DNA of 64,000 nt, taken from positions 13,807,241 to 13,871,240 of the forward strand of contig CM049318.1 of assembly GCA_026874595.1 (NCBI GenBank), in the 5' to 3' direction. The notes beneath the pieces are model-generated. The model made no database searches. It saw only the letters and a program-made list of their open reading frames with translations, and was not told where the DNA came from. A program made the position numbers and the translations under genes. Below, in pieces: positions 9,701 through 62,213 of this stretch (positions are counted from its first letter, which is position 1; the number at the start of each line of letters is the position of its first letter). Source of the DNA: Sipunculus nudus. Lineage: Eukaryota; Annelida; Sipuncula; Golfingiida; Sipunculidae.

Positions 9701-11150
9701 TACCAGCATGCAGTTCAGAGATCCCAACTTAACAGGGCATTTCAAGGGTCTATCAAGTTTCAAAATGACTTTCTAAGAAAATGAGATTAAAAACCTTGGG
9801 TGTTTTAAACAAGAAAGAAACCACAGCTGATGATGGTTCAAAGTTTTATGATTATGACATTATGAATAACCCCCAATAACCAATGCATTCCTGCAATAAC
9901 CAATGTATTCCTGCAATAACATGGGAATTTATATTAATGAATTTGGAAAAAAAATTTTTCATCGCAATACTGACTCATCAACCCTTCCAGGCCAACCTTT
10001 GATTTCAGCGGAATTCGTCTTCAAAGCACTAAATCTGCATGCAATTCCCAGTTTATCTAACAATTACACCAGCAAATAAATCCTAAAATTCATTTTTGAA
10101 CAGCAGAAGCAGCAATGAAAACAAGGGACCCATGGGTCACGGCGCTCAGCTGAAGTTTGAAAATTTTGCAAATGCAAAATATGCAAAATATTCTATTGTA
10201 ATGTTTTTCATTTATACAAACATATGAGAAGCTAAGAGGAAAGGGGCCCTCCTACTTGGTTATAGATAAGTTGTAAATATATGATTGCAAAACTAATACT
10301 CTGAGAAGACTGTCATGAAGAAAAACAGTAAATGTTTTGAGATACTGTGATGCATATGAAAAATTTACGAATGGACAGGCAAGTGGACAGAATGGACTAA
10401 TACATTTATTTCACTTTCAAGGAAATAATGTATTTAAGTTTATATTTATGCCTATTTTTTTAGCATATCCACTTTTTCAATTAACAGTTTTTATCAGATT
10501 CATTTTTTATTTAATTACAAGTTTTATAAATTTGTAATAAAAAAATCTGAAAATATAAGCTAAAATATCAGAATTCTAAGTTGCAATCATTATTTATTTA
10601 TCCAGAGTGTAGCTCATATCGGGTCATATTGTGCATACACAAATATTTTATTATTTTTAAATCACAAATGTTTAAAGTGAATTTAAAAGAAAATATTGCC
10701 ACAACATGGCATCTTCAAGATTATTCCTTGAATCACTATTGAAAAGTTTTGTACATTGGAGCTTTCAGTACATGCTTAATTTTATTCACCGAAATAAAAG
10801 ATTAAGTAAATCTGATAAAATAAAACCATCTTTTCAAATAAAGTATACACACTGTTAGTTGAATGAGGGACAAACATCATCATTGTGCTTATATCTATCT
10901 CAGCTATATTATTTTACTGGAATTAATAATCAATTTCACACCTTGTGAAGTTTTTACTCTTCTGAAGTAAAGAACTACTTATCTGATGAACATCCACACT
11001 TTCATATAGCAATACACCACTTTGTGGACACAATGAAATGTGCACTTTAACCCTGGTGGTACGATACAAAAACTAAAATAAAGCACAGCCTAGAATAAGA
11101 ATGAATCAAATACAGAAAATTATAAGATTCATCTAGTTTATGCACCAACT

Positions 11151-11170
11151 GGGGGGGGGGGGGGGGGGGG
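11151..11170 (+). repeat. (G)20 homopolymer
   Basis: Twenty consecutive G residues lie inside family A copy 2, about 90 bases before the nested transposon. A run this long is likely length-polymorphic and prone to assembly error. Confidence 0.95.
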
Positions 11171-11263
11171 AGTGAAGGGCAGAGGAGAAGCCTGCTAGTA
11201 GTGGCCAAGCTGAGCCAAGGCAAGCTGCATAGAGAGGGTTACATGATACAAGTGAAGGCTGTA

Positions 11264-13177
11264 CCGTAAAATCTCCACTTAAAACCGCGGTTTAATCAAG
11301 AAATTCAAAATCTTGAAATCATGTTGTTTTCCTGAAAGCACTGTGCGGTTTATACTAGAAGGGTTTCCTATATATCTTCCTGGCAGACATCGTTTTTTGG
11401 CCGTTGACTTGGCGATAATATAGCGACTTTCCAAGGCCGCCATTAGCAGCAGTCTCCCATGCATGGGAGCCTTGTGTAAATGTATTATTTATGATTATGT
11501 TTTATTTTTTAATTAAATATTGCTGATTATCTCTGGTGTTATAAAAATCTTGGTAATTAACACCAAATTATACGTTTATAACACCCCTGCTGTTACACAC
11601 AGCGGCCCACTTCGTTGGGCATAGTCAAGCAAAACTGAAATTAATACCTGCTTTAAACCCATTTGCGGCATTATTTACCAACGATTATTTGTTAAAAACG
11701 TAAAATGAATAAAAAGCAGACATCGTAAAGAGTCACACAATGGGTGACGATCGTTTTAAAATCAAGTTTGAGTGCCACCATGTGCTGAAATGCCCCGGTA
11801 TTCTGCTAAGAATATTTTGAACGGCTTTAGGCGGTGGGTGGTAAACAGAACAGCCACCTATTCCGTCCCAGCGTGCCTTGCGCAAACGCTGCCTTGACAA
11901 GATGGCAACCCAAACGGAATCTTTCTTCAGGAAAAAAACTTGCTTCCCACGACTAGCCACTTTAATTTTACTTTAAAATCACTCGTTTTCACACTCGTGT
12001 TTCCTAGGAAAATACGTGCGTTTTTCAACAAGGTAACTTCAGTTATTTTGATATTGAGCTAAGTTGACCAGCGATGTTTTCAAACGCACCAGAAATTGTG
12101 ACAAGGAGCGATGTCAACGTATGATGTGACGATGTTAATACCGAAGTAACCGGTATGAAAATGATTCGAATCTTCCGAGTAATTCAAGAAAATGGAATTT
12201 TCATCACAGATTAAGATTTCAAAATATTACCTTTAGCATAAAAAATATACAGTGGCTTGAATCACCACGTGTAACCGCCAAATTTGCGTTTAATTTTTCG
12301 TTAAATGACCGGCCATCGTTCATTAGATCGTTCGTTTTTACTCCTGCCAGCGCCCGAGCGCAGGTTCAGGTGATAATTGACAGAACAAATACAGGTACAT
12401 ATGTACCCGAATAGGTAACCACGGTTACATGCAGTGACGAAACGTCATGTCATTGGTTCATTTCAACTCATTTGCATAGCCAAAGATGGCACTCGCTTCC
12501 GAATATTGCCGACGAGCGACCGTGCATACAAGCGTGCCATTAATGAGGCCTTACGGAAGATGCAAATTTTCGGGGCTTAGGGCAAATTTGAACGATCTCA
12601 AATCAGTTCTCAGACGGGTCACGGCTATCAGACATTTGCGGAGGAGGCCACGGTCATAGCTTGAAAGAAGCTGCTTATTTCTCCAGTGGAACACTTTTGA
12701 TATTTATCTGCTTCCTATAAATTAAAAAAAGTTGTTGCGCAGAACTACGTTCTAATTATATATAAACTGACGAACCCTCTTATGAATATGACCGTCCACA
12801 CGCCGTTTTCGCGAGGATATTTGAACTGTCAGTGACGATCTCAGAACATCGTAATTTGTATCTGTATGACAGATTAACGTTGTCGACATTAAGTCGTACT
12901 TCACCTAAAAATTCCACGCGCAAACCTCGACTTTTACTGGTTTTGCAATCAGAATCTAATTAAAAATTTAAGAGTCGCACAGTAAATCTAGGGTCGGTCG
13001 GGTAACCGGAAACAAGACCTTTTCACGCCTCATGGAGATCATTCCGTAGCGAAAGTTGGTGCGGTTTTAAAGGGGGGTTCTTAGTATTTGAGCCCCTCGC
13101 GGTGTCTCACCTGGGATTTCGGCAAAGTCTGGGTGCGGTTTTAATCGGAAGTGCGGTTTTTAGTGGAGATTTTACGG
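11264..13177. mobile_element. 1.9-kb CpG-rich DNA transposon with ~25-bp terminal inverted repeats, TA target duplication
   Basis: The left end CCGTAAAATCTCCACT continues to 11288. The right end (13153-13177) is its reverse complement with one mismatch over 25 bases. TA flanks both ends (11262-11263, 13178-13179), fitting a TA target duplication. The motif GTGCGGTTTT recurs three times near the right end. The interior is rich in CpG, unlike the surrounding intron, and has no transposase-like open frame: the longest is a 75-codon minus-strand frame at 11733-11960 with no recognisable motif. It is probably non-autonomous. The superfamily was not identified. Confidence 0.85.
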
Positions 13178-15599
13178 TACTACTAGGTGGGCCTGATGTA
13201 AACAACACTTGACATGGTGTATGGAAACTTGAATAAAAGCTTCTTTTTCAATCAATTCCTTTGAAATTTCAGATTTTAAAAGATTAAATCCTTATGTATA
13301 TATGCTGTAAAAATTAAATCATCAGTGCTTACAGGGATAAAACATGCCATAGCCAAAGTTGGTCAAAATTTAAGGTATTGATTTTTTATTTATGCTAATA
13401 ACTTTAAAATTTGCAAAATTCAGATCTCATTTTGGGTTAAAAATTGAATCTTGATTTAATAAAGTTAAATTCCTGAAAAAAAAGTCTCCAGCTTCAGCAA
13501 TTCCCATGTTAAGTGAGTAAATAAATTTCCTGATTTTTAAAAAAAATTGCATTATATTTGGACCTATAACTTCAAAACAATATTCAATACTGACCTAATT
13601 TTTGGTATGTTAATAGAAAATGTATGAAAGAATATGAATACTAAATATAATCAAAAACAGACCAGTGGTTTCGATATTAGGCAGCCTTGAAGTGTAACAA
13701 TGGCTTTTTTAATGAAAAATGGAGGTTTTTCCTTAATATTTCGAAGGAATGAAGTCCTAGTGACCCAATTTTCAGTATGCAGGAGATTTTTGAGACATCT
13801 GACTGTATGTAAAATTTTGGATTCATAGGTCCAACGGTTTCAAAACGTGCCCTGTTAACGGCCGGACGGACGACGGACAAAGGACCATGACTATAGCTCA
13901 GATGACTTATAGTCAGCTGAGCTAAAAATGTAGCAATAATAATAATTAAGAAGTAATGTGTTATCAGTTCACAATCATGTGAACTGTCCTATATCATTAA
14001 ATTGTGACTAAATACATAATAAAATTAATACCTATAAGTAAAAATTAATTTTATTTAAATTATTAGAACTCCTGATATATAATTTGCATACAAAGCAAAG
14101 ATTACACAAGCCCATAAAAGAAAAAGACACTATTTTCCTAGAAATATATATAAATGAAAAAAAATATACATTTAAAAAAAATATACTTAAGGCTTAACTA
14201 ATACTTCTGCCTCCTCAGTACCAATGTAAGAACACTCCAGAACCAACTTCAACCAAGAATCTTACTGACTGCAGGATGCTGCCTTTGTAGTGAGAAATGA
14301 CTCCAAACTGATAAAACTGTATTAAAATAGCAAGAATATTAAAAACTGTCACCTTGATAACATCCAGCATCTTCCATGATAGCCAGGTGTCGTTTTTTTA
14401 TTTTACAACAGACCACATATAAAGACCCAGATATATATGTATCATACATCCATGAATGTTTGTCTGCGGAAGAAACAAAAACAGGTCACCTTCTACGAGC
14501 GCTGAACACACAGCTCATTCTCACCTAGTACTCTCTGAGCTATTTGTAGTCATCCCACACCCTGAATGCCTTACTGTTCTGTGGCCACGAGACAATTAAC
14601 AGGAGCTGTATTTTCCAGGCGCGTTCATAACACAAACTTGAGCAGATTTTGTGTTTATGATGCATCACCTGTTATTTCCTGTCTGTTCTGAGACCCGGGT
14701 TTTGAGACCTGGGTATACAAGACCTGGGTATATGCCAACCGTGCTTGTGGAGTCCTGTACGGACCATTCATTGACCTTTATACATACACAAATATAAAAA
14801 CTCCTGGCTCAGGCAGTCCTCGTACTTTGGGGCAGCAGACAGCAAGACAGGGTATATATATTAATGGCAGCTCCCGCAACAATCAGATATGGTTCCTGTG
14901 ATATGAAAGAAATGAAAGATGCAATCTATAAGGACTCAGATCTGCTGCAGCCTGTGAACAGCCATCGATGAAATGCAGCATTCCTGTGACACCACCACTG
15001 TACAGCAGCTGAGCTGGACTCAAAGACAGTCTGACTGTTCTTAAAGAACAATGGAAAACCCGAAACCTCACAACCTTATGTCCACCACTTTTCATTGACT
15101 TAGTTTTCAGCTTTTTCATCAGCATGGTTCAAAGTCAAATTATTCTTAACGCAGTGCTAAAATGTAAAGGCAATTTTATAACTTACAGGGGACAAATAAA
15201 AGCAGAAATGCTGGCACAATGCATTCTTCAATTGTGAAATGAAATTTTACTTGGATCATTATCCTGACTTTTAAGTTAAACTCATGGCAGAATGTGGTTG
15301 GCTTTTTATTTTTTAAGGTTTAAAATTCAAAATTTTTTGCGAAAAGGAGAATTATCATGAAAATTAAACCTTTAAGCATAAGACACACAACCTGTACAGG
15401 TCAACATTCATATTGTACAGCCTCGTCAACTGACATCTTGTGTAGGTTATCTCTTCCTGCAGCATCGCAGTTTGAAGACTGATAACTAAAAATTTTGTTA
15501 CCTCTAAATCACTGACTTGTATTATTGATATTAAAATACAGCTATTTATCTACCTATAATGTCAAGAGCACCGCAATTGTGCAAAATACACCCGTCGTG

Positions 15600-16104
15600 T
15601 ATCTGGTGATCTCTGACCTCATTAAATATGCGTGCAATTTTGATCTGAAGGTAATTCTGGTGAGAAACTCTATTGGTAGATATGTTTAATGAGTTTCATG
15701 AAAATCCATAGAAATTTTGGTAAGTCACCAAAGTGCCTCCAGAGCGTGGTGACCTCTGACCTCATTAAATATGCATGGATTTTGCTGGAAATCCAACTCA
15801 GGCCAGGTATTTTATTGATCAACATCTCTGATGAATTTTATCAAAATGTTATCATATTCTTCATAAGTTATTGCAGCGATACCACAAAGTAGCCTAGTGA
15901 CCTGTATGTTACCTCATTAAATATGAGTGGATGTTGCCCATTAATGAAATTGGGCAAGATAATCTGTTGGTAAGTAGTTAATGGTGAGTTTCTATAAAAT
16001 CCATCAAAGCCCCCGTAAGTTATATTGTGGCGACATTAAAATTTGATGGACAGACCGACAGACGCCTGGTACACCATAATACTCCTGTCATATGACAGAC
16101 ATAT
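15600..16104 (+). repeat. Short element with three ~145-base tandem units and a terminal palindrome
   Basis: The phrase GACC..(T)..ACCTCATTAAATATG recurs at about 15607, 15750 and 15898, each followed by related sequence on a GAAATC..ATTTT theme. The core ends in GGACAGACCGACAGACG and then the perfect 14-base palindrome CTGTCATATGACAG (16085-16098). The left border was not located. The layout resembles families A to D, but a matching 5' box was not found. Confidence 0.6.
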
Positions 16105-19100
16105 AAAATAGAATTTTTACCTGTTACATGTTCCCTTGAGTCTTCATCAAACAATTATATACATTTATGAATATACTGTGTTGGTCACTATATTGTGAAA
16201 TACCAAAATGAAACCCTCGCAAAACACTGTGAAAGTGAAAACAAGGAAAATTTAACCTCGCAAATATGAAACCAACAAGAGTATTTCACTGCAGTGAAAG
16301 TCAATCCAAGTCATAACATACATGGATCTTGGTTTATAACTGAAACACTGAAGATATATCATAAGTCAAATTTCAAAATAAATTCCACTTTTATTTTAAT
16401 AGTCAAATTTCAAAATAAATCATGGTTATCATAAGACCTGGTTTGGTAGAAAAAGTCAGTTACAAATACACACTGTGGACTGTGCAACACTGTCAAAAAT
16501 ATTCTAGTTCATGGATGCTAAACATGATGCTTAAAAGAAAAGGATTTTTATTCAAATGAGCAACCCTAAAATGGTACTCTTTTAAGCAGCATGACATTAG
16601 CTCAAGGAGAATTAAAAATATATGAAGACCTTGCAGATACTGTCTTGTTTTGTTAATACAGCAAGATGTCCAAAGACCTCAAAGTATCCACCTGACAACT
16701 TAACAGGAGTACGTCAGATAGGTCTGAGGCAGATCTGACGACCCTATACTGATACAGCCAATACAAAATGTCAGGTTGTAAAACATCCAAATAGTAACAG
16801 ATAGTATCTTCTTTGTCAAGTCAAATCAATTTATCTTCAGGAGACAGCCCATGTAGCAACATTTAACTTCTAAGGTATTTTTTTCTGGGCTTTAAATGCT
16901 TGATCTCTTCTACTGATACTGTACATTTTGTTTAAATTCTGAATGTTTCCCTTATTGTGTTTATCTTGTGCTGTTAATTTTTTTTTTTTTTCAGTCAAAT
17001 TTTCTTTTGCTAGAACTACCCCTGTTTTAACTTATATTGACAAAATTTCATATTTTTAGCTTGAACGTACTTATTACAGAGTTAAAAAAACAAACCTGAC
17101 CAGAACCACCACTAAGCTCATTCTTAGACTGTCTACCTTTAAAAATACAACTATGCAAGTTGTTTGAAATGCACTTAATGACCTTGGTTGTGGAACCATT
17201 TCTGGGCGAATGAGTCACATAACAATTTGTTCCACCCAAACACCCGTCGTGAGAAACAGTTCCAAGAAAAAAGACTTAGTAGGCAAAATTACCTTTAAGC
17301 TGTCTGCATTCTCTGGGAAATAATCCAGCCCTGCATGCATTAAATCTTAATATCCGAAGAATCATTGGAGTTGCATTTTAACAGCCAATGTCAAAACAGA
17401 CTTTATTGTTTGGGCACAATTTAAGACTGCTCAGATTGTTAATTAGTGAATGCTTAATTAATCATATGCTGATGAAAATACCAAGGAAATGCTAATTTCC
17501 TGTCACTTTAGCATTTCAGCTGGGACTGCTGCAAGAATCTCTGGGCAAGATGTTTGATTAAATAAGCTGTTAGATTTAGGACAGTACATGAGAAAAACAG
17601 TTTCCAAATGATGCACCGCTGACTGCAACAACACTTTTAACAGATATTCATGTCTCCACTAATGGCATTCCGCTGCTAATAAATTCTGAGAGTTAAATCA
17701 TTTAGCTATCATATTAAGTAATATGAAGTCTGGCCTGAGACCATTGTAAACATCACTGGCTGGATGACTGTAACAGATTGACATTTCTCTTGGTTGAGGT
17801 AACACTATATTTCTCTGACAGACCATAAGTTAAATAATTTCTTTAAACAGATCCAGTCATGCACACATTATTAGATGATGAAGGGTGTGGGAGAAGCCTT
17901 ATAATTCCTCATCCTGCTTATCTGGTAAAAAAAACCCTCTTAAATATGAAAATGGTTTAGATTGTCCTATCTGGCATGAATTTTGTTAAAATGTTTTTTA
18001 TTATGTTTAAAACTCAGGAATGAAGATACCTACAATGATGAACTTTGATAAGGCAATAGTAATCAGGTACAATGGAAATATCATAATATACTGAGATAAT
18101 GGCCACAGGTGGATGCTGATGATCTTGACATGAGCAGATCTTAGCGGGTTCAAAATTATAAAATTCTAAGAAAATTTACATGATTACAGGATTACATGAC
18201 TTGTAAGATATATATGATAATACAGAACTTTTCTAGGAATTCAAGAAAGGAACTAAAGCAGCCCAATAAAAAAAAAGACGCATTTCACCACATGACAGTA
18301 AAATGCTAATATAAAAAATCATATTCACTTTGTACTTGTATCTCTAGTCCACACAAAATTTACAAATATTGGTGGCTAGCAGCAACCCAAGTGACAATAG
18401 TTTAAAGCCATCTGTGGACTACCCAAGAAAGAAGTCACCCTGTAGACAAAGGAATATAGTGTATTCTGTGAGTGTGTTTAGAACTGAGAGTTGTCTGTGT
18501 TCTGGTATTCAGTTTTAGATCCATTAGGATCAACTCTAGACTAAGGACAGACAGGCTAGTTAAACAATAATAGCGTGCTTTAAATCTTAAAAGGCCATGG
18601 TGTGCCTGAACTGTACATTATGTTGTTTGGAAGACAGTGACTACTTATAAATGTTGGGTACCATGTTGTATGATGGTCTTGAACATTTTCAGTCCTATCT
18701 CTAAAGTCAATCATGCATTATAATAACAAAGAAATACTAATTTGAAATAATATTTTTATCCCTTTTTTTCCAAGAGACCAATATAATTCAATATTAACAC
18801 TATAAAGAATACATTATACATTCCTAACACCTGAATTTTCCTAAACCAGGATTCTAAGAAACATTTTTTAAGATAATTTTAAAGTTTCACAGGGAAGTGT
18901 TTTTCAGCTTCTACATTTATTATAGCATATTGCAGGGCATAGCCCAAAACCAATAGTAAGTCTTAATGCCTCTCAGGCTAGAGAACAATACGAACCTTAT
19001 GCTGTGTTAACAGCTGGTCTATGATTGACAGCGAGATAAGCCAGGCATTGTCTGATGCTCTTTATTACTGAATGACTATAAATGATTATACCTGTTCCAG

Positions 19101-25752: not shown

Positions 25753-26220
25753 ACTAGAATATCAGCAGAAGCTGACAAAAGCCCTCAGCCAAAAGAACAG
25801 TGTTTATAAGTTGTAGTAGTAACAAGTACAAAATATTTGTTCTCTCATGGATGTATATCTGTATATGTCTCAGTTATAAATTTAAACTGGAGAGGTATGT
25901 ACCATGTTCCATAACAATCCACCATATGCTTTTAGAAGATATTCTGCTCACACGGCCTAAGTTGAATTAAGAATTAAGCTTTTAAGGGTTTTTCTATAAT
26001 CAGCTCTTAAACGTAGAAAAATAGGTCAAGGTCACCCATCTTTGAACGAGATTTTGTCGATATACATCTTCAGCGAAGAAATAAAATTCCTACGGTGAAT
26101 CCTTTTAGAGATATCCCTCTCACAAGGTAAAAGTAAACGGACGCCGGACGGATGGACGGACGGACGGACAGCTTGGGTGACGACAATAGCCCATCAGCCT
26201 AAGGGCTGAGGGCTAAAAAG
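25753..26220 (+). mobile_element. Family D element (short Helentron-like element)
   Basis: The 5' end is ACTAGA, then hairpin TCAGC-agaa-GCTGA (25762-25775), then box AGCCCTCAGCC (25780-25790). The 3' end has a GGAC-rich run (about 26135-26170) and hairpin 26187-26215 (TAGCCC..CAGCC, loop TAAG, GGCTG..GGGCTA), then AAAA. The last arm GGCTGAGGGCT is the exact reverse complement of the 5' box. The core is unique rather than tandem and is non-coding. It starts about 415 bases from the C2-end exon. Confidence 0.7.
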
Positions 26221-29610: not shown

Positions 29611-29645
29611 TAATACCTGATGCAGTGTTTGGATCAAATGACATA

Positions 29646-31262
29646 ACTAGATATTTCTTGGCACCGCAGGTGCCATAGTATCGCCAGACAATTAATCCCC
29701 CCCCCCTTTAAGAATAGGCCCCCCATCTTCAGCAACAATTAATATCAGACCACACTCATAGAAAAGGTCATTCTCATAGAAAAGGTCATGATCCAAATTT
29801 CAATATACATCATCCCCTAACCCATGTCTATGTATATGCAAGAAATCTGTCCATTAGTTTTTGACTTATAATGCTCACAGTACTGTTAAGTGGCAATGAT
29901 AGGGTATTAAACGGCAGGAAAACAAGTAGAAGAATAACAGGTGGCACCACCTGTTTCCCGTACATGACAACACTATCCAAGATCTTCGTTCAAGTTGATT
30001 TTTGGACCAATCAATGCATCCCTTATTGAGAAATTAATGATTTTGTGTGATTTTCACCATATATGGCAATATTCAAGGTAAAGGCCACTCATTGGAAAGG
30101 TCATGACCCCTATTCAAATAAACATTATCCTATAACCCATATCCATGCATATGCATAATATGAAAGAAATTTGTCCATTAGTTTTTGACTTATAATGCTC
30201 ACAGTACTGATAAATGGCAATGATGGGGTATTAAACGGCACAAAACAAGTAAAAGAATAACAGGTGGCGCCACCTGTTTCCGGTACATGACAATACTTTC
30301 CAAGATCTTCGAACATGTTGATTTTTGGACCAATGCATGCATCCCTTATTGAGATATTAATGATTTTGTGTAATTTTCACCATATATGGCAATATTCAAG
30401 GTCAAGGCCACTCTAATAGGAAAGGTCATGACCCCAATTTATATATACATCATCCCATAACCCATGTCTATGTATATGCATAATATGAAAGAAATCTGTC
30501 CATTAGTTTTTGACTTATAATGCTCACAGGTTATAAATGTACTGTTAAGTGGCAATGATGGGGTATTAAACGGCACGAAAACAAGTAAAAGAATAACAGG
30601 TGGCGCCACCTGTTTCCGGTACATGACATTACTATCCAAGATCTTCGGTCAAGTTGATTTTTGGACCAATGCATGCATCCCTTATTGAGAAATTAATGAT
30701 TTTGTGTGATTTTCACCATATATGGCAATATTCAAGGTCAAGGCCACTCTCATAGGAAAGGTCATGACCCCAATTTAAATAAACATCATCCCATAACCCA
30801 TATCTATGTATTTGCATAATATGAAAGAAATCTGTCCATTAGTTTTTGACTTATAATGCTCACAGTACTGTCAAGTAGCAATTTTGGGGATATTAAACGG
30901 CATGAAAACAAGTAAAGAATAATAGGTGGCGCCACCAGTTTCTCGGACATGACAACCCTATCCATGATCTTCGATCAACTTGATTTTGGGATCAATCCAT
31001 GCAAGTTTTCTTGAGATATTCAAGAATTTGTGTGATTTTCCCCAAAATTGAACCTATTCAAGGTCAAGGTCACTCTCCTAGTTGAGGTCATGACCTCATT
31101 TTAAATAGGCGTCGTCCTCTCACCCATATCTATACATTTACCAAGTTTGGTAAAGATCCTTGATATATTTTTTGAGTTATTGTGTCCAAAAAAATCTCTG
31201 CCGCGGCGGCGCGACCGTGCCTAAACCATAGTATCTCCAGACTATGTCTGGCGATACAATTA
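29646..31262 (+). mobile_element. Family B element, copy 1 (palindrome-array, Helentron-like)
   Basis: The 5' end ACTAGA is followed by hairpin GGCACC-gca-GGTGCC (29660-29674) and box GTATCGCCAGACA (29678-29690). The core has about four tandem units of roughly 325-335 bases, each with GGTGGCGCCACC (29940 degenerate, 30263, 30599, 30925) and the phrase CCATTAGTTTTTGACTTATA. A GC-rich patch CCGCGGCGGCGCGACC (31201-31216) precedes the 3' hairpin (31231-31257), whose outer arm TGTCTGGCGATAC exactly complements the box; AATTAAT follows. Minus-strand frames of 63 and 66 codons are just two copies of the repeat. Confidence 0.85.
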
Positions 31263-32294
31263 ATATTCATAAAATGTGTTTGGGTAAAACGAGACAGCAT
31301 TGCAACAGGTTCATCAAAATATATAATAAAATAAGTAAGAAGTACTGACAGAAACCTTATTCTTAAAGAAAAAGAAGTTTTTTTTTATTTTATCAATTTA
31401 TATATAGCAAAATATGATCTCCTTTCTGTCTAAGGACCTGAACTCTCCTCGCTCCAGGACTGGTTTCCGATGCAGATGATATATGAGATGAAATCAGAGT
31501 TTCAGACATAGCAAATTACCATTTTATTTTATTTTTTAAAGCTACATATTCAGTAAAATATTATGGAAGCAAAAATGTCTAAAGTAATTTTCAAATGCAT
31601 AGCTTCTGGTGAGAAAAGACTAAATACTTCAGGGGGAAAGTTGATGAGCTGTAAGTCCCATGCCAAAGTGCCTTACATAGATAATGTAAAGGGAATATGC
31701 CATTCGTGATAACATCTTGAAAAATATGAGTTATCCATCTACTGGAGCATGTGAGGGTATATATACACTGATAGCTGCAGGTCTTTATATATAGAAATCC
31801 CAGAGCATATAAAAACCTCCTCTGGGAGACATAAAACAAGATACAGAGCTATAACATCAAAACGTAATTATCATCCATTAAAGCAGCACCTGCCTGCTGG
31901 CCCAGCCCCGCTTACAGACACACCGGGAAGCACCTGGAAGTCTAAGCCAGTGGACCAGCAGACTTCTGTATAAACACGAGAGCACTTAGAGAATCTAAAA
32001 ACCAGAGCAAGAGCAGAAAACTAAAACTAAAGTACAGCAGGCTGGCTGCCAGTTTGTCAACAATGTCACTCAAGTTGGATATCCTGTAGATATAATCAGT
32101 ACTTCTTTTTACATTGATAAAGTATTAATCACTTGAAGAATCTTTGTTTGTCTGTCAGTCAGTCTGTCAGTCAACAAGTTTTTACAGGATGAACTTGTTC
32201 TCACTGACATTAATTGGCAGCAGGTCTGGGTAAGGGTGGTTTTGGGTGGGTGGGGGGGAGGTGCCAGTAGGAAGATCCAGAATGATAATGGTTA

Positions 32295-32527
32295 TCCTGA
32301 CCCTGATCCTAGCATGTCAATCCTGACCCTGATCCTAGCATGTAAATCCTGACCCTGATGCTAGCATGTCAATCCTGACCCTGATGCTAGCATGTCAATC
32401 CTGACCCTGATCCTAGCATGTCAATCCTGACCCTGATCCTAGCATGTCAATCCTGACCCTGATCCTAGCATGTCAATCCTGACCCTGATCCTAGCATGTT
32501 TATTCTGACTCGAATCCTAGCATTTGG
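32295..32527 (+). repeat. 26-bp minisatellite, about nine copies
   Basis: The unit is TCCTGACCCTGATCCTAGC plus ATGTCAA. Copies 1 and 5-7 are identical by eye, copies 3 and 4 share a C-to-G change in GATCCT, and the last two are decayed. The GATG variant in adjacent copies suggests spread by unequal exchange. Confidence 0.95.
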
Positions 32528-33260: not shown

Positions 33261-34046
33261 GGGTTATATCTAGACAAATTTGAGTGCAAGCTAAATTTAC
33301 AGACATTGGCAAAGCAAGCAGAGGTAGTCACAGCAGGGGGTCCATGGGCTGGCCTTAGGGCGTTGTTTTAAATGTTATAACTATTTTTTCAATGATTATT
33401 TTGGCCTTCAACTGATTAATTTTTTGTAAATATACGTATGAGGTACACATTTCGTGCAGTTTGGGGAAATAAATAATCAAAGTTTCATTGCTGGTTGCTG
33501 TTTTTTGATGATCTTTAAGATCTTTTGTGTGATCAGTGGGTTGCAAATTTTAGCTTTGTGCAAACCAGCAGAAGCCTGTCCCAGCTACCCCTAACCAGCG
33601 CGGCTATAAACCTGCATACATATAAACATGTATATTATCTAGAATATGACCTACCAATGTTTTCATGCACAGTAACTCTTTTTGGAATACCATCAGGCAT
33701 CAGGCAAATTGTTAATAGCTTATTTTTTATCATATCCCTTTCTCTAAAGCTGGACTAACACCTTGATTTCTTTGCATCTGTGAAAGTTTGGAATTCATTT
33801 ACATTGTATCCACGGAATAAAATGTATCTGCTAAGACCTTTAACCTTGCTGTCATCCAGGCCAGCCAACCCTGGCTAAATCATAAAATCACTACTGAGTT
33901 TAGGTCCATGTTATATTTACTCTGATTGCCTCAAATTTGAAGATATTGTCACTTTTATCCCCAAAATTAAAACCATGGCCCATCTGATACCAGAAAGTCT
34001 CAAATTTATTTGCATTGGTTGAAAGTGAAAGTCCTGTATCAACAAC

Positions 34047-36673
34047 AAGGGACCTATGGGTCACGGCGCTCAGCTGTTATATATGATAAAAAAGTATGAT
34101 TTAGAAATGAGGCACATGCTGGTTTTATGTGGTAACAAAAATAAGCTGTATTATGATTTGTTGTTGTTTAGCTTATGAATGATTTTGATAGTACTTTGGA
34201 GACAGGAAAGAGGATTAATTTAATTTATTTTATTAACAAATGGAGTGCAATTGTCACACAGATTTTGACTTGGCCATATAACTTATAAGCAGAACATATA
34301 ATATAAGAGTTTAACTGTTTATTAAAAAAATTACAAATATTGTCCCAAATATAAGAGAATATTATGATTTTTTCAAATAAAATATGACTGAAATGATTAT
34401 TAAAATAATATTAAAGAATATATTCATGAATGCATTCATTAATACATTTTGAAAGTATTTGCACTGGTATTCATATACTTTCATTTTTACCTGAATTCCC
34501 ATTCTTATGAAAGAAATTTTATAATGGAGTATATATTCATATTCGTGTTTAAATACAATTGCAAAGTATTCGCACCATGTCTGGTATTTATTCAGTTTTC
34601 ACCAAACAATGATGTTGAGAATCCAGAATATACAAAATTCACACTTTTAAATAATGATCATAAGTACCTGGTTTTATGGCTTTTATTTATATTAAAAAAA
34701 AATGTAATATATTCACTTTGGACTAATTTCACATCAATGTACTAACTATAGACACAGTAGGAATCTAGATAATAATATTATCAACTGCATCATTGTCTAT
34801 CATTAATTTCCTTCATATGATCCCTAATGATTAGTAATGAATAATATGATTTACTTTTTTATCATTACAATTGAACTGAAAAATACCATAGGTGACTGCA
34901 TGGTGTTATTTGGAATATGTGACATTATATCCATCGATACAAGATTCTTATATCATCAGTAACTGCAAGTTAATTTCCTGTTATTATCAACTAACAAATT
35001 CCTTTTCTATTTTTCTTTAATTTGTTATTAAAAACCAATAAAAATTTATTAATTTATTGTTTATTGTTATGTTGTTGGTTAAAACTACTAGATGAGTTGG
35101 GTTGGACACCTGGATCAACTGTGGCTGGCCATTATATAATAAGCTGCCTGGAGCCCCAGTTTATGACTCGCCTCAAGCATGCATAATTTGCTGAAAGTTC
35201 AACAAGGTCAACATACAGGTGACTCAAGAGGTGCTACAGAGAGCCAAGGTCTGACATGGTCTCATAAAAACATTAATAAAAGCTACAATTTTTGGCCAAT
35301 TTCTTTCAGCTTTTTAAACTAAAAAGTTGAAATCTTTATGTGTGCATGATATGAAAATTATATCAACAGTGCTCACATGAAACAAACATGCCATGGTCAA
35401 AGTTGGGCAAAATTTAAGGTACTAATTTTATATTTATACTAATAACTTATAAAATTTGAAAAATTCAGAACTAATTTTGGGTATTCAATTGAATCTTGAT
35501 TAAATAATGTTACATCTCTGACAAAAAATCTCTAGCTTCAGCAATCCTCTTGTTAAGGGAGTAAATATTTTTCTTGATTTTTTACAAAGTGCATTATGTT
35601 TGGGCCCATAACTTAAAACAATTACGCAATACTGACATCATTTCTGGCATGTTCATAGAGAATGTATAGAAAAATATGTATATTATATATGATTAAAGTC
35701 AGATCAGTGGTTTTGAAATTAGGCAGTCTTGAAGTGTAACAATGGGTTTTTAACGGAAAAATGATGTTTTTCATTAATATCTTGAAGGAATTAAGTCCTA
35801 GTGACCAAATTCTTGGCATGGTAGGGGATTTTTGAGACATCTAATTGCATGCCAAATTTTAGGAACTGAGAGCTGAAGCTGGGGAGCTGAGCACTTGCAA
35901 ACTGCATGACACTAGCTTGATGTAAACAATATGTTACATGGTGCTTGAAAACTTGAATAAAATCTACAGTTTTTGATCAACTGGTTTCAAATTTTCGGTG
36001 TTAACAGACAAAATGCTAAAAAAACATGCTTAGAAAATTAAATCCACAGTACTTACAGGAAAAAAAAGTGCCATAGTCAAAGTAGGGCAAAATTTAAGGT
36101 ACCAATTTTTTATTTTTGTTAATATTTTAAAAAATTTAAAAGATTTTGATCTAAATTTGGGTATACAATTTAATTTTGATTAATTAAAGTTATATTACTG
36201 GAAAAAAAAGTTTATAGCTTTAACATATTTTGTGTTAAGTGATCAAATATCTTTCCTGATTTTTTACACAATGCATTATGTTTGGGCCCATAACTTTTTA
36301 AATTTACATAATACAGACATAATTTCTGGCATGTACATAGGAACTATATAGAGGAATAATTATGGTAAATATGATGAAAAACAGATGAGTGGTTTTGATA
36401 TTAGGCAGTCCTGAAGTGTAAAAATAGGTTTTTAATAAAAAATTGAGGTTTTTCCTTAATTTCTAAAAGGAACGAAGTCTCAAAGACCCAGTTTTCAGCT
36501 TGGTAGGAGATCTTGGGGACATCTAACATTATGCTGAATTTTGGATTCCTAGGTCTTACGGTTTCAAAACGTGCCACATCTACGGACGGACGGACGGAAG
36601 GACAGACGGACGGATGACGGACAATGGACCAGGACTATAGCTCAGATGACTTATAGTCAGCTGAGCTAAAAAC
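34047..36673 (+). mobile_element. Family A element, copy 3 (longest in the window)
   Basis: The 5' end ACAAGG, GACCTATGGGTC (34051-34062; one base off a perfect palindrome) and box GCTCAGCTG (34068-34076) match copy 2. From 34958 on it is collinear with copy 1 through two ~690-base tandem units. It then has a GACGGACGG run (about 36583-36625), hairpin 36638-36668 and AAAA. The segment 34080-34957 has no counterpart elsewhere in the window and is very AT-rich, so the 5' end could belong to a separate truncated copy. Confidence 0.7.
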
Positions 36674-53046: not shown

Positions 53047-53049
<3 letters not shown>

Positions 53050-54339: not shown

Positions 54340-55075
54340 TATGATATACTGAGCAGTTTAGATGAAGAGTGAGCACTTTATTGTACAAGGCTAAGTATTT
54401 AAGTTCCACACTGAACACTCCACTGCACAGTACTGAGTAGTTCAAATAAGAGTAAGCACTCCAGTATACATTGCTGAGTAGTTCAGATAAAGAATGAGCA
54501 CTCCACTATACATTGCTGAGTAGTTCAGATAAAGAATGCACACTCCACTGTACTACTGTAGAGTACTGTGTAGTTAAGTTACACACTGAGCAGTCAAGTG
54601 TATAGTCCAATGAGCACACCACTGTACAGTACTGAGCAGTTCAAATAAACACTGAGCACTCAACTGAACAGTACTAGCTGAGTAGTTCAAATAAAAGGTG
54701 AGCACTCCACTATACAGTATTGAGTAGTTTACTGTTTATTAAAACACTCGACTTAGTGCTCTACAGTTGAGTGCTCACTCTTTATCAGCTCAAATAGACA
54801 CTGAACATCCAACTGAACAGTACTGAGTGGTTCAAATAATGAGTGAGCTCTCCACCATACAGTATCAAGTAGTTAAGATACACATTGAGCACTACACTGT
54901 TCAATACTGAGTTTTAAGGTAATACACTGAGCACTATAAAGAAAAATACTGAGTAGTTAAGATAAAGAGTGAGCTCTCCACTGTACAGTACTGAGTAGTT
55001 AAGATATACACTCTGAGCACTCTACTGTGTAATACTGAGCACCTAAGTTAAGATGAGCAATATGCAATACTGAGT
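54340..55075 (+). repeat. Degenerate ~46-bp satellite, about 16 copies
   Basis: The loose unit is ACTGAGTAGTTCAGATAAAG plus AGTGAGCACTCCACTGTACAGT. Copies differ by substitutions and small indels. Around 54745-54790 the unit appears on the opposite strand (CACTCGACTTAGTGCTC, GTGCTCACTCTTTATCAGC), so the array contains an inverted block. Confidence 0.85.
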
Positions 55076-55533: not shown

Positions 55534-55566
55534 CCTTATTTCCACTCCCCGGGAGTGGAAATAAGG
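55534..55566. repeat. Perfect 33-bp palindrome (16-bp arms)
   Basis: The arms are CCTTATTTCCACTCCC and GGGAGTGGAAATAAGG with a single C between them. Related half-sites (GTGGAAATAAG, GGGGGAGTGGAAATAAG) recur at about 56483 and 56515, so it may be one end of a decayed repeat pair. Confidence 0.95.
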
Positions 55567-58195
55567 AATGCTTATTTCCTCTCCCCCTCATAATAAAGGC
55601 TGGTGCAGTGTATAAGTATTCTGGGAAGTATAAGAAGTTTTTCTTGTTAAAAGAATTTTTGAGAATGTGCAATATAGTTTATTTATACTCTCTATAATAC
55701 TGAGTCATTATAGGTTCATCTATATAGTCTATATAGTTTTACATTTGTGCACTTAAAAAGGTTTCAGTTTTTAAATTGTAATGTATTTCTAAGTGAAATT
55801 GTTGCTGTATTATACATAAATTTAAAACATATCTATGATCTGTTAGAATAAAACTTGCAGTTAAATTACCAGGTACATTCAAATTTCTGGCCAGATTTTT
55901 CAAGACAAATAAAATGTATATTTTTCTGCAAATAGTTAAATTTGGTCAATAAGTTTGTTTCATAATTTTAAAGGTTTATATATTAGGCATGGAAACAAGT
56001 TTGCAGTATCTTAAATAGGGTGCGAACTGTTTTGACAACACTTAAATTGTTTTCTGTCTTTGTCCTTATCAGCTGATGGTTAGCACCTCATCAGTAGGGC
56101 CAGTCTAGAGTCTGTCTCTCGATATGCCCAGACTAAGTGCACAGCTAAAGCTTAGACAGGTGCACAGGACCATACACACTGGTTCGCAACTTCATGAATT
56201 TATCTGACCACTAGCTGATTTTATCCAAAACAATTTCAATGGCTGGACTCACAGTGATGTCAGAATAAGTGAACTTTGTCTGAAAGAAAAACTTGAACTA
56301 CAAAGACATATATAGGATCCAAACATATTAGAGTAATTAAAGACTATTGTCACCAGTGTTGGACATTACAGGTAGGACAAATAACCAACTACTATTACAT
56401 TCTATACATCCCACAGGGCTGATGAAAGTAAATTTCTTGATTTGTAAATATTTAACTTTTACTAGTATATTATATATAGGGTGTGGAAATAAGTATTCTT
56501 TATTTAAACTTCCAGGGGGAGTGGAAATAAGCACTTCCTATTTTTTTTAATTCATAATTAATATGTACATGTATTTTTTTAACATAACTTCTAATTCACC
56601 CTCTTCAGCTTAGTCATATATTTATCCAATTGTTCATTATTATAACAATGTTACTGTATATTACATATATACTTACATTTCTAGCTGATGCACTGAGGAT
56701 GATTTCAATTTCAGAATAATCCAGCATGCAGAACACTTGTGTGAAGTCAACACCTTATTCTTACATCAAGGCTGCAAACTCCAACCAATGACCATGTAGG
56801 AACATCAACTGATTAAATTGATAAAAGTTAAAAAAAAAATACTTCCTGAATCTCAGGTGACAAGAGCAGCTTTCTTTTAAGTCGTACAGTTGATCCTTCA
56901 GCCTGATAAGTTAAAAGCTTATAAGTCAAACCTGGACTCTGTGGCACTAAAAGTGATATAGTTCAGCACTTAGCCTGATCTGTGAACTACAACACTAACA
57001 CGAACTACTTAACAGTGACTTGTGTGAAGCATGTAAATGAGAGCCAAGTATCCCAGAATGATATGCAATATCCATTTCAATTTGCATAAAAACACTCCTG
57101 CGTGTGCTGGCGTGAAAACACAACTGATAGCAGGTATAGCGTTGGGTTGTTTGGACTACTTAACAACGGAGCTTTCATCATGTAATAAACATCCACAAAC
57201 ATGCATCCCCTACTATCTGGGCTTGTCAGCCTCTGCAGCTCCCTGTGGCATTATAATCTAAATGCAGAGGGTTCCTTTCACAAAGGCACGTGCCAAAGAC
57301 ACATCAATATGGCAGCAGATTGGCCTGGGGACAAACACAATACACACTGAATATAAAGCACACCCCACTCCAGTGAACATCCCCCACCCTGCACTAAATT
57401 AATGCACTTGTTTTGGCCTGCCTCATTTGAATGAGAATTCCCTCATTTGCATAATGACCTGCCTGCTCGGCCAATAAGTGGACAATACACAGGGGTTCTT
57501 TGACGGGAGTGTATTCATCTCCATGTACCATGTGGCTCCATTAAGGATAACTCTGCCCTCTCCATCTGTCGAGGTTCGCTCTCCGACTGCTTTATGAAAT
57601 AATCATGATTTGTAGATATAACCAGTACTGCGGCCCACACAAAAAATAACCGGAGCCCTGATAATCACAGGTTTCCATGTGCAAGCATATCAAAATTACC
57701 TGGCTTCGTGATAATGTGTAATATTACTCAACTCTTCCTGACTCACGCACTCATCATGAAATATTAACATTACATTTCACTTTGATTTTTTTGCTAAATC
57801 AGATGCAGGTGTTCATGCATTTAAAAGGTGAAAAAGTTCTGGGAATGCTCCCAAGCAGGATACTGAGAATACAATAACTTTAAACGGATTTTTCAATTAT
57901 ATACGCAAATCTCATCAGGGCTATTTTACACTCCATTTTCTCTCATATATTTTTCTCATAAGGTCTTTAATTTTTTAACACTGCTATATCCTCCATCACA
58001 CTGGATGGCAGTAATTTTTTCTTATTCATATCTTTTAAGTGCATCACCAAGCACACCGGGCATTAGTAGTTTTTGCACAAGTACATGTGTAGAGCAGTAG
58101 TCTATATAAAAATACTACCGCAAGTAATGTAAGATGAATAACAAAATATATATAATTAAAATCTCTCAATAAATAATGTATAATGTTAATGTATA

Positions 58196-60186
58196 ACTAG
58201 ACATTTCTTGGCACCGCAGGTGCCAGAGTATCCCCAGACATAGTACGCCCCCCCCCCCCTTTAAGAATAGGCCCCCATTTTTAGCAGCATATACTGACAC
58301 TTGGCAAGCAATTACTGTTTCTTCCATCTATCAATCCACAATCTTTTTGAAGAAGTTGGTCCTGTGACCTTGACCTTTGACCTCATGACCCCAAAATCAA
58401 TTGGGGTCTTGCTTTTTCAATGGGACATATATAAGTCAGGTTTGAAATCTATTCATTAATAAAAGCAGGAATTATCATCCAGAAACTAATTTTTGGACAG
58501 ATGGCTCCTGTGACCTTCACCTTGGACCTTGTGACCTCAAAATTGATAGGGGTCTTCCATTCTTGGCAGGTGAAGTATATGTGCAAGATGAAAGATCCGA
58601 GATGAAATGCTTGGCTGAAAATGCATCCACATCTTTTTAAAGATGTGTCCTGTGACCTTGACCTTGACCCCAAAATCAATTCGGGTCTGGCTTTTCCAAT
58701 GGGACATATACAAGTCAAGTTCGAAATCCATACATCAATAAAAGCAGGAATTATCATCCAGAAACATTTTTTTGGACAGATGGCTCCTGTAACCTTCACC
58801 TTGGACCTTGTGACCTCAAAATTGATAGGGGTCTTCCACCCTTGGCAGGTGAACTCTATGTGCAAGATGAAAGATCTGAGATGAATTGTTTGGCTAAAAA
58901 TGCATCCACAATCTTTTTAAAGATGTGTCCTGTGACCTTGACCTTTGACCTCATGACCCCAAAATCAAGTGAAGTCTTGCTTTTCCAATGGATCATATAC
59001 AAGTCAAGTTTGAAATCCATACACCCATAAAAGCAGGAATTATCATTCAGAAACTAATTTTTGGACAGAAGGCTCCTGTGACCTTGACCTTTGACCTTGT
59101 GACCTCAAAATTGATAGGGGTCTTCCTCTATTGGCAGGGGAACTGTATGTGCAAGATGATAGGTCTGAGATGAAATGTTTGGCTGAAAATGCAACCACAA
59201 TCTTTTTAAAGATGCAAGTCCAGTGACCTTAACCTTAGAACTCATGACCCCAAAATCATCTGGAGTCTTGCTTTTTCAATGGGACATATATAAGTCAAGT
59301 TTGAAATCAATACATCAATAAAAGCAGGAATTATCATCCAAAAACTAATTTTTTGACAGATAGCTCCTGTGGCCTTTGACCTTGTGACCCAAAACTGATA
59401 TGAATCATCCACTATTGGCAGGTGAGCTATATATTCAAGATGGAAGACCTGGGATGAAAGTTTGGCTAAAAATGCATCCACAGTATCTTTTAAGATGCGA
59501 GTCCAGTGACCTTGACCTTTGACCTCATGACCCTAGAACCTATAGGGTTCTTACTTTAGTGGTGGGCCATACATAAGTCATGTTTGAAATCCATATGGCT
59601 ATCAACACTGGAGATATCATAAGAGGTGTGTGATTTTCACCAAATATGGACACATTAAAGGTCAAGGCCACTCTCATGGTAAAGGTCATGACCCAAATGT
59701 AAATAGACCTCATCCCATAACCCATCTCTCTACATGTGCATAATATGAAAGAAATCTGTCCATTAGTTTTTGACTTATAATGCTTACAGTACTGCTAAGT
59801 GGCAATTATGGGGGTATGAAAAGGCGTAAAAACAAGAAAAGGATAACAGGTGGCGCCACCAGTTTCCGGTATGTCACAAGGCTATCCAAGATCTTCGGTC
59901 ACCTTGATTTTTGGACCAGTCTATGCAAACTTACTTGAGATATTTAAGAATTTCTGTTATTTTCAGCAAAAATGGACCTATTCAAGGTCAAGGTCACTCT
60001 CCAAGCAAAGGTCATGACCCCATTTTAAATAGGCTTCGTCCCCTTACCTATATCTATACAAGTGTAAAGTTTGAAAAAGATCAGTGAAATATTTTTTGAG
60101 TTATCCCGCTCACAATTTTTTTCTGTGGCGGCGGCGGGACCGTCGTGAAACCATAGTATCCCGACTTTGTCTGGGGATACAATAAT
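58196..60186 (+). mobile_element. Family B element, copy 2 (with nuclear-receptor-like DR1 repeats)
   Basis: The 5' end ACTAGA, hairpin GGCACC-gca-GGTGCC (58210-58224) and box GTATCCCCAGACA (58228-58240) match copy 1. The left core has about four units of roughly 290 bases with TGACCTTGACCTTTGACCT and AAAGCAGGAATTATCATCCA. From about 59600 it switches to copy 1-type sequence, with one GGTGGCGCCACC (59849). It ends with GTGGCGGCGGCGGGACC, a 3' hairpin whose arm TGTCTGGGGATAC (60168-60180) complements the box exactly, and AATAATT. Minus-strand frames up to 138 codons are repeat artefacts. Confidence 0.85.
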
Positions 60187-61038
60187 TATCACACTGTTTT
60201 ATATTTGAAGGATATACTGAATTATTTATAATCAAAGTTTACTATTTAGAAATGACATAACAGTGTTATAGCAGCACAGCAGGTCATGGTGAACACAGGT
60301 GGATGGGATGAAGAGACACCTATCTCATCCTCCTCTGCCACTGATAAGGTATTTAGTAAACATAGGTGATAACTGCACTATTGTGTTACTATAACAGCTG
60401 GCCACCATATGATGTGCATGGCCAGCTGGACAGCGTTTTTTTCTCTTTCTCTCCAAAGCCTTCTCTTCTATCAGAGATCAGGCCTTATTATCAGTAGTAG
60501 ACTTTACAGTTTGTTCTTTCCAGCAACTGGTCAGATAAGACAGCTTTAAGCTTGTCTGTCCACACTGGGTCAGGTATATTCTGTGTTGCTGTGATGTTTT
60601 TATTATACAGTAGCCTGAAAGGCTGTCATCCCTCCTTCTATGTGGATAATTTCCCATTCAATCAGCTTAAAAACCAATACAGTAAATGACTTTACATGCA
60701 GGTGTCCTTTGTTGACATATCAAAATCATGTCATGCCAGGTAATGTCAGAGATACACCTGAAGTGATTGCTCATGTGTAATAATCACCAAACTGGATAGA
60801 AGTTTCAGAACTCAACGGTGTTGTACCATACCTGTATCAAGCTTCTTGCAAAAAAGGACACAAGTGTTATTGTTCAAGGCTTTGGCAAGGATTACACTTC
60901 CATCAATAAATTCATCTTGTCCATTGATGTAAAATGTTATATGTAAACAGCTGTTCCTCAACACACCTGTAATTATTTGATGGATAATTCTTTAAATATC
61001 TAAAGCTTACTCTAGATTTCATTATCTTCTTAAGCAGA

Positions 61039-62213
61039 ACTAGAATACGGGTAGTCGACAAGCGACTACGTGTATCCGCCTAAATCAGAGTGGAACGGGT
61101 GAAGTGAGGCATGGATTGAGTGGCAAGGGGAAATAGAGTGAAGTGTTGCATATTAACATGGATGTCTGCAGCCAAATTGTGTATGTAGGTTGCCCCCCTA
61201 CCACAAAATCCAGGAAGCCGTCCAAGTTGTATACATATGCAAAATTTAAGGCAGATAAGTCAAACCACTACATGTATATGAGTGATTTTAGCCCGTGGCA
61301 GACAAACAGATGGACGCTGAGCAAAAATGGTTGCAGGTGGCGCCACCAGTTTTGTGTATGATAAAGAGCTATGTGAGAACTATACACATGCAAAACTTTG
61401 GCCCAATCGGTCAAACGGTTCCCAAGATATGAGCTTGGATGTCTGCTGCATAAAATAGAATGCAGGTGGCGCCACCTGTCATAAAACCAAGAGAGCTGTC
61501 GGGGATGTATAAACCTGCAAAATTTTAGGCAGATATGTCAAACCACTGCCGAGATATGAGTGATTTTATCCCATGGCACACAAACAGATGGGAGCGGTGC
61601 AAAAATGGCTGCAGGTGGCGCCACCAGTTTTGCGTATGATAAAGAGCTATGTGAGATCTATACACATGCAAAATTTTGGCCCAATCGGTCAAACGGTTCC
61701 CGAGATATGAGCTTGGATGTCTGCAGCATAAACGTGAATGTAGGTGGCGCCACCTGTCATATCATAGAACAGCTATCCAGGATGTATACGCGTGCCGAAT
61801 TTCAGGTGAATTAGTCAAGTCACTGCAGAGATATGAGTGATTTTAACCTAAGGCAGTCAACAGATGGACACTGTGCAAACATGGTTGTAGGTGGTGCCAC
61901 CATTTTTTGTGTATGTTATAAAGCTCTCCAAGTGCTACATTTGTGCAAAAAAAATTTCCTGATTGGTCAAACGGTTCCCGAGATATGTGGGTTTATGTGT
62001 GGAAACAGATGCACAAACGGACTCAGAGCGCAGAGGAAAGGTCAGAAGTCAAAACAAAATTGGTGCGCGACAGTTCACATGTGACCCGAACATAATCCCC
62101 GGTTTCGTAAAATTCCGCCCAGCGGTTACGGAGGAGTTCTCTGGACACCTACACGGCGGCGGGGGGCTGAAAACATAGTATCCACAAAACTCTGTTTTGG
62201 CGGATACAATTAT
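61039..62213 (+). mobile_element. Family C element (palindrome-array, Helentron-like)
   Basis: The 5' end ACTAGA is followed by hairpin GTAGTCG-acaag-CGACTAC (61051-61069) and box GTATCCGCC (61072-61080). The core alternates two half-units, giving GGTGGCGCCACC at 61336, 61465, 61614, 61743 and a degenerate one at 61890. The 3' end has CGGCGGCGGGGGG, then hairpin 62178-62207 (GTATCC..AAAAC, loop TCT, GTTTT..GGATAC). Its arm GGCGGATAC complements the box; AATTA follows. Plus-strand frames of 71 to 84 codons here repeat one another and are not genes. Confidence 0.85.

Follow-up and report, generated by a model that had tools for sequence, protein, structure and literature searches.

Elements of the window and their end structure

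The 64,000-nucleotide stretch of the Sipunculus nudus genome analysed here (the window; contig C13, 13.81–13.87 Mb, in a genome of 1.43 Gb) carries six complete elements and one partial element of four repeat families designated A to D, one of the six being a relative of family B (Table 1). Read on the forward strand, as in the original prediction, each family displays a 5′ hairpin, a short box, a core and a 3′ hairpin complementary to the box. This shared plan is real: box and far arm pair exactly in all four families (A 10144/13913, B 29678/31245, C 61072/62199 and D 25780/26204), and two further elements absent from the original prediction, at 34045 (A2) and 58196 (B2), fit it as well. A composite scan of both strands, in which ACTAGA or ACAAGG is followed by a hairpin, a box and the complement of the box within a second hairpin 0.3–4 kb away, gave exactly five matches, namely A, D, B, C and B2, compared with 15 in total over 60 dinucleotide shuffles (mean 0.25, largest 2). 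BLAST added A2, with one substitution in its box, as the sixth complete element. A hexamer and hairpin alone are uninformative, as 18 window sites carry this combination (four hexamers, stems of at least 6) and just 3 of them are elements; A and D fall outside this list, their stems being counted as 5. The ACTAGA start common to the families is the conserved element end itself.

Reverse-complementing the six complete elements gives the published plan of Helitron2 and HINE transposons, and because of this we rename the features: the 3′ hairpin of the forward reading becomes the 5′ hairpin, the box becomes the 3′ repeat, and what was called the ‘extra 5′ hairpin’ becomes the ordinary 3′ palindrome. 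On the corrected strand, the 5′ subterminal inverted repeat (subTIR) lies 1–2 nt from the 5′ end in 6/6 elements, with the exact end ambiguous by a few bases in A and D, where it falls in a T-run, and the folding energies of the 5′ hairpins, under RNA parameters, range from −13 to −21 kcal/mol. The 3′ subTIR lies 23–33 nt from the 3′ end in the six elements (the 24 nt of A2 counts one flanking base), and the intervening palindrome, present in all six and with one mismatch in A2, starts 6 nt from the 3′ end in A, 9 nt in D, 12 nt in C and 13 nt in B and B2. The repeats measure 9–13 nt overall, with exact lengths of 13 nt in B, 11 nt in D, 10 nt in A and 9–10 nt in C. Between B (29646) and B2 (58196), the box changes from G to C and the far arm from C to G, and complementarity is kept. 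Folding the ends of the six elements revealed no further strong hairpin beyond the published two, only weak extra pairings.

According to the published description of Helitron2 (PMC3627910), the repeats measure 8–15 bp; the 5′ one lies 0–2 bp from the end and forms a 5′ hairpin, the 3′ one lies about 20–30 bp from the 3′ end, directly before a 3′ hairpin, and related elements differ by compensatory changes. Descriptions of HINEs give a left end composed of a subTIR, a complementary inverted repeat and a microsatellite, often of GTCC type, and a right end composed of a subTIR and a palindrome (PMC7492417; PMC4067079). We conclude that the window elements are almost certainly HINEs, non-autonomous members of the Helitron2/Helentron group of rolling-circle transposons, and that they lie on the minus strand. 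Their end plan is already known; the families are of a known kind and the pattern is an ordinary one.

The four families had been called unrelated, which is too strong. Same-strand BLAST at 1e-5 indeed matches none of A, C and D with another of these three families or with B, while B and B2 match each other, and to this extent the description stands. All families have in common ACTAG at the forward-strand 5′ edge (mostly ACAAG in A) and, on the element strand, CTAT at or just past the end of the 5′ hairpin. GTATC repeats and TACTATG occur in B, B2 and C, and GCTAAAAA tails are common to A and D. The GGAC microsatellite is present in D, in A2 and in the partial family A element (A0), is interrupted in the first complete family A copy (A1), and is missing from B and C. 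A core palindrome, GGTGGCGCCACC with variants, has one copy in every core repeat of B, two in C and one in the B-type part of B2; it was not found in the A and D elements of the window, and a literature search for it returned one unrelated paper. Despite this common palindrome, the B and C cores are otherwise dissimilar. In three fetched C copies (L059, L064 and L067), AACTAGAAT, which resembles the element's own end, precedes GGTGGCGCCACC; it does not do so in the C element of the window. Thus B and C are linked by end letters and a core palindrome, and A and D by tail letters and the microsatellite.

Table 1 Features of the window (positions in window coordinates)
Feature	Position	Strand	Details
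Family A HINE, partial (A0)	1..1709	−	5′ part only inside window; subTIR arm 1698-1707
Family A HINE, copy 1 (A1)	10121..13924	−	A-run to 13928; forward-strand 5′ end is the element's 3′ end
A1 3′ palindrome GACCCATGGGTC	10127..10138	−	The ‘extra 5′ hairpin’; 6 nt from 3′ end
A1 3′ subTIR	10144..10153	−	The box; 23 nt from 3′ end
A1 interrupted GGAC run	about 13864-13878	−	
A1 5′ terminal hairpin	13895..13923	−	5′ subTIR and inverted repeat; forward-strand 3′ hairpin
Nested terminal inverted repeat (TIR) transposon within A1	11264..13177		1.9 kb; TIR CCGTAAAATCTCCACTTAAAACCGC; TA at either side; separate from the HINE
Family D HINE, complete	25753..26215	−	Box 25780-25790; 5′ hairpin 26188-26214; A-run to 26219
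D 3′ palindrome TCAGC-agaa-GCTGA	begins 9 nt from 25753 end	−	
D GGAC microsatellite	26146-26169	−	
Family B HINE, complete	29646..31258	−	Box 29678-29690; 5′ hairpin just within 31258
B core			4.2 × 336-bp tandem; one CAGGTGGCGCCACCTG-type palindrome per unit
Family A HINE, copy 2 (A2)	34045..36668	−	A-run to 36672
A2 3′ module ACAAGGGACCTATGGGTCACGGCGCTCAGCTGT	34045-34077	−	
B-related HINE (B2)	58196..60181	−	3′ hairpin as in B; box GTATCCCCAGACA
Family C HINE, complete	61039..62208	−	Box 61072-61080; 3′ palindrome GTAGTCG-acaag-CGACTAC
C core			GGTGGYGCCACC palindrome every 130-150 bp or so
GGTGGCGCCACC-type palindromes	29938-30936 (B), 59849-59860 (B2), 61336-61901 (C)		

The core of B2 is composite, comprising a 289-bp array and then a B-type 336-bp unit within one pair of ends. 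The TIR element nested in A1 is unrelated to family A, and its oriented end was found 599 times in the genome, 64 of them on contig C1. Tandem arrays also lie outside the described HINEs, with a 42-bp unit at 54349-55059 and a 26-bp unit at 32294-32523.

Copies, target sites and a Rep/helicase lineage

A genome-wide search found copies by the thousand. Using module patterns made of the 3′ hairpin and all or the start of the box, with wildcard positions in some, we counted 4860 copies of the family A module (2397+2463 on the two strands), 1345 of B (644+701), 3118 of C (1587+1531) and 1223 of D (612+611); the reversed-pattern control gave 0 for each. Box B, GTATCGCCAGACA, had 1647 matches by itself, compared with 8 for its reversed-pattern controls. 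When 20 B copies were taken by the box alone, as plus and minus pairs from the first listed places, all 20 showed the hairpin and an AACTAGA edge. In family A, ACAAGG is the main subfamily (92 of the first 100 copies listed, with ACTAGG in 7 and ACGAGG in 1), and we dropped the notion that ACAAGG was a mutation of the window copy.

Flanking bases were compared for 29 elements: 19 of 20 fetched B loci, 6 of 10 fetched C loci and four elements of the window. Left out were L010, which missed the pattern, four C loci with no far end inside the 3-kb locus, and the window's A element, which exceeded the length limit. An A lies immediately outside the ACTAG end in 29/29 elements and outside the other end in 27/29, the two exceptions being L016, with a T within a TA repeat, and D, whose A-run was counted as element. 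At least four empty sites, among the spanning alignments listed, are ungapped at the join. The site of L063 (C) aligns at 120/120 and that of L011 (B) at 98% over 108, and those of L012 and L024, both B insertions within family A-like cores, at 91.7% and 92.5% over 120; for the latter two, the matching uninterrupted copies are those of the window (13569-13688 and 36243-36362). Visual inspection places L023 (B) and L083 (D) inside the core type found at 58–60 kb of the window, again with an A|A join. Insertion is at A|A, or T|T on the element strand, with no duplication and no loss. The original prediction had staked itself on where the true termini lie and on the flanks, and in the copies examined the termini are at these hairpins and target duplication is absent.

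HINEs also lie nested within HINEs, with B inside A-like cores (L012 and L024), D inside a B2-type core (L083) and L023 placed likewise. At L079, D lies within the A-tail of an A element, producing a head-to-tail composite.

A genome search with Helitron_like_N returned 143 matches from the best 150 of 195 candidates scored, with two matches at some loci. Motif 2 was found in 26 of the 30 Rep loci read. It reads GSPH in 24 of them, GLPH, the Helitron type, in L030 and GWPH in L055; a serine at this position is given as Helentron-diagnostic in PMC4067079. One Helentron-like lineage, represented by L035, combines DUF6570, OTU, Rep, PIF1 and Exo_endo_phos domains. The ends of this endonuclease-bearing lineage (L035/L036) were not reached in stretches of 21.3 and 24.7 kb, and it was tied to no family. 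A C-type HINE beside one Rep gene proved to be inserted within the element.

A second lineage, at 71.18–71.20 Mb of contig C7, provides a link to family A. It is related to L056 and L058, which carry the motif EFQQRGSPHIH, and has an open reading frame (ORF) with DUF6570, Helitron_like_N and PIF1 domains, followed after 0.87 kb by an exact family A 3′ module in the same orientation. We searched with a 1551-base query in which the end of the Rep/helicase ORF extends to about base 588 and the A module occupies 1462–1497. Of 1938 candidates, 40 were scored; these gave 24 places whose terminal piece ends at query positions 1494–1501 (1494–1497 in 22). In 20 of the 24, the match extends into the ORF end as well, by at least 145 nt in 16, and in the other 4 it begins beyond the ORF. 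Two loci extend past the module: that of the query and, on the same contig, a 99% copy. Because the terminal pieces stop at the module end, an autonomous-type Rep/helicase lineage most likely ends, on its 3′ side, in the family A 3′ module. As no endonuclease domain was seen in it, this lineage appears to fit Helitron2 better than a strict Helentron with its C-terminal endonuclease. The search for partners with the same ends thus yielded a Rep/helicase lineage with the 3′ end of A, but no endonuclease there and no partner for B, C or D.

These features suggest how the elements might move. On the correct strand, an element runs from a T through the 5′ hairpin (5′ subTIR, loop and inverted repeat) and a core, tandemly repeated in most, to the 3′ subTIR, the 3′ palindrome and a terminal CTAGT, which is CTTGT in the majority of family A copies listed; the insertion point lies between two Ts. 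Following the published model, a Rep/helicase supplied in trans by an autonomous element would nick the element strand at the 5′ T and the nicked strand would be displaced, with the 3′ palindrome and CTAGT presumably recognized as the terminator. Bao and Jurka proposed that pairing between the 5′ and 3′ subTIRs opens the 5′ hairpin and fixes the endpoint (PMC3627910); the same may happen here. A single-stranded or circular intermediate would then be joined into a TT site without target duplication; plus-strand cleavage and circular intermediates are reported for Helraiser (PMC5876387).

The identification of the families as HINEs or pearl-like elements, already made in the original prediction, holds: the end structure is the published one, insertion at T|T leaves no target duplication, copies number in the thousands and a Rep/helicase lineage carries the 3′ end of A. 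The further proposal that the extra 5′ hairpin marks a distinctive HINE sub-type draws on a feature that is indeed constant, being present in the six complete window elements and in the 20 B copies chosen by the box alone (fetched C and D copies were chosen by the hairpin itself and are hence uncounted for its presence). The elements had, however, been read on the opposite strand. After correction, the hairpin turns out to be the canonical 3′ palindrome by which HINEs are defined (PMC4067079; see also PMC7492417) and the 3′ hairpin of Helitron2 (PMC3627910), as these sources describe them, and its order and distances agree with the published ones, the 6 nt of A being slightly short; we regard a separate sub-type as very improbable. 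Cut-and-paste miniature inverted-repeat transposable elements with asymmetric terminal repeats would account for short inverted repeats at both ends of non-coding, high-copy elements, and DINE-1-like elements were formerly filed as such, by the account in PMC4067079. However, empty sites with ungapped joins show no target duplication, the repeats are subterminal on one side only, and the Rep/helicase lineage terminates in the A end. Non-autonomous elements of canonical Helitron1 type, defined by a 5′ TC, a 3′ CTRR, a hairpin at the 3′ end alone and an A|T target, recall the 3′ ends of B, C and D, where a hairpin and a few bases precede CTAG and then T, a CTRR-like arrangement; but the target is T|T, the 5′ ends are TGTATC or TAGC, not TC, a 5′ hairpin and a subterminal repeat pair are present, and GSPH prevails among the Rep motifs. 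Empty sites and end letters rule out both of these readings, whose chances we rate even lower than those of a sub-type.

Several observations weigh against the HINE identification or its link to a Rep/helicase lineage. The exact subTIRs of A (10 nt) and C (9–10 nt) are below the 12–15 nt given for mite HINEs and the 11–12 nt given for Cg_HINE (PMC4067079; PMC7492417), the palindrome of A, 6 nt from the 3′ end, is below the published 8–35, and the GGAC/GTCC microsatellite is absent from B and C. Alignments of L012 to more diverged copies are gapped near the join. The C7 module could also be an old A insertion minus its 5′ end: the 11.6 kb upstream of the module yielded no 5′ end of A type, and family A is linked by its 3′ end only. 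The A-linked lineage ORFs scanned lack an endonuclease domain, the ORF of the C7 copy is interrupted, and an autonomous partner is tied to none of B, C and D.

Orientation domains

The six complete HINEs and the partial one in the window all have the same orientation, in a scan limited to these families. We analysed orientation further on contig C1, using the first 100 listed copies per family, which extend to 14.8 Mb for A, 26.9 Mb for C, 67.6 Mb for B and 91.5 Mb for D. When members of two different families among A, C and D lie within 50 kb of each other, they share orientation in 57 of 70 pairs, compared with a rotation null of 0.498 (standard deviation (sd) 0.065) that reached this value in 0 of 5000 rotations; the null preserves each family's own autocorrelation, not shared segmental duplication. 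In the merged first 15 Mb of C1 (164 insertions), we observed 43 strand runs against 77.6 (sd 6.0) expected, including a run of 19 like-oriented insertions at 0.06–1.14 Mb. Family B, set beforehand as a replicate, agrees with A, C and D in 53/65 pairs at less than 50 kb, 43/62 at 50–100 kb, 75/127 at 100–200 kb, 199/347 at 200–500 kb and 250/492 at 0.5–1 Mb. Over all six family pairs, co-orientation declines from 110/135 at less than 50 kb (93/115 at 5–50 kb) and 91/137 at 50–100 kb, through 152/261 and 396/696 farther out, to 527/1028, or about 50%, at 0.5–1 Mb; pair counts are not independent of one another. Agreement with the nearest member of another family within 50 kb is 53/62 for A, 30/38 for B, 39/50 for C and 28/33 for D, counts that include some pairs twice. 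Across this part of one chromosome, HINEs therefore form domains of co-orientation.

The pattern is uneven across families. Family C alone shows no grouping into strand runs (54 against 50.9 expected), its own pairs within 50 kb are co-oriented in only 11/20 cases, and B–C pairs within 50 kb in only 12/19. As a control for cut-and-paste transposition we used the TIR element nested in A1, with its 64 copies on C1. Its orientation agrees with that of the nearest HINE within 50 kb in 16/26 cases and in 33/50 of all pairs, a signal weaker than that of the HINEs but not cleanly absent, as 33/50 is not clearly 50%.

Two explanations were weighed, and we place neither above even odds. The orientation of genes, with HINEs surviving or inserting mainly where their strand is the coding strand, comes fairly close to them. 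The tens-of-kilobases length scale is in its favour, and the window's longest ORF (4623-6764, 714 aa), which is gene-like, lies on the minus strand like the HINE strands. This ORF matched nothing in Pfam at 0.05 or in the PDB at 0.01 (nine ORFs were Pfam-scanned in all). With a zinc-finger motif as the marker of gene strand, six gene places were found on C1, one of which has a listed HINE within 50 kb: the gene at 15236876 (minus) has two D modules, listed as plus and so on the minus HINE strand, at 9 and 37 kb. The window ORF and this gene are, however, the only supporting points within 50 kb; at 95–140 kb, the zinc-finger gene at 2748439 (minus) agrees and that at 30900411 (minus) disagrees, and the 19-insertion run seems long for one gene. 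Replication-fork polarity would instead have integration proceed into the one strand exposed at the fork, as in IS200/IS605. Cross-family co-orientation that decays with distance and the weaker TIR control are in keeping with it, and in bacteria IS200/IS605 elements are reported to follow fork direction (PMC5371812). Against it stand the TIR control's ambiguous all-pairs count, the lack of strand runs in family C alone and the low C–C and B–C agreement, and we consider it unlikely. A general form of the idea, in which A to D occupy orientation domains of about 50–100 kb because integration joins TT on a strand exposed by some polar process, most boldly the replication fork, seems to us similarly doubtful. 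Given the IS200/IS605 precedent, the fork idea may be worth testing, and no more.

A literature search for orientation domains of HINEs or Helitrons found no such report among the titles listed. Co-orientation is the less expected result and the part of this analysis that deserves follow-up. If fork direction is the cause, the target of a rolling-circle transposon in an animal is single-stranded DNA at forks; if any polar process is, the orientations of thousands of HINEs would be a fossil record of fork or transcription direction; and if the domains follow genes, they imply strong strand selection or transcription-coupled insertion.

Comparison with known systems

As described by Bao and Jurka in 2013, Helitron2 elements share with the families of S. 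nudus a 5′ repeat at the 5′ end that folds into a hairpin, a subterminal 3′ repeat followed by a hairpin, repeats of 8–15 bp and compensatory changes between relatives, and Helitron-1N1_CRe likewise lacks a target duplication (PMC3627910). They differ at the target, which is T|T here but TTTT followed by T or C for Helitron-1N1_CRe, while CRe-1, 2 and 3 have target duplications (PMC3627910). The tandem cores found here are a further difference, and one in which our families resemble bivalve HINEs.

HINE/DINE-1 elements (Thomas et al. 2014, PMC4067079) and Cg_HINE of Crassostrea gigas (PMC7492417) are described with the same left end of subTIR and inverted repeat and right end of subTIR and palindrome, a T-rich TT target without duplication, a tandem core and several families per genome. 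A GTCC-type microsatellite is likewise present in D, A0 and A2, and interrupted in A1. The families here depart from those elements in the 9–10-nt exact subTIRs of A and C, in the palindrome of A 6 nt from the end, in the lack of a microsatellite in B and C, and in an A-tied lineage in which no endonuclease domain was seen. Bivalve pearl elements, DTC84 and MgE are alike in architecture, by the description summarized in PMC7492417. The C. gigas authors report that they were unable to relate any autonomous element to their HINEs (PMC7492417), and the tie between family A and a Rep/helicase lineage is of the kind they could not make. With termini, empty sites and an A-linked Rep/helicase 3′ end in one genome, the S. 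nudus families offer a clean worked example of HINEs.

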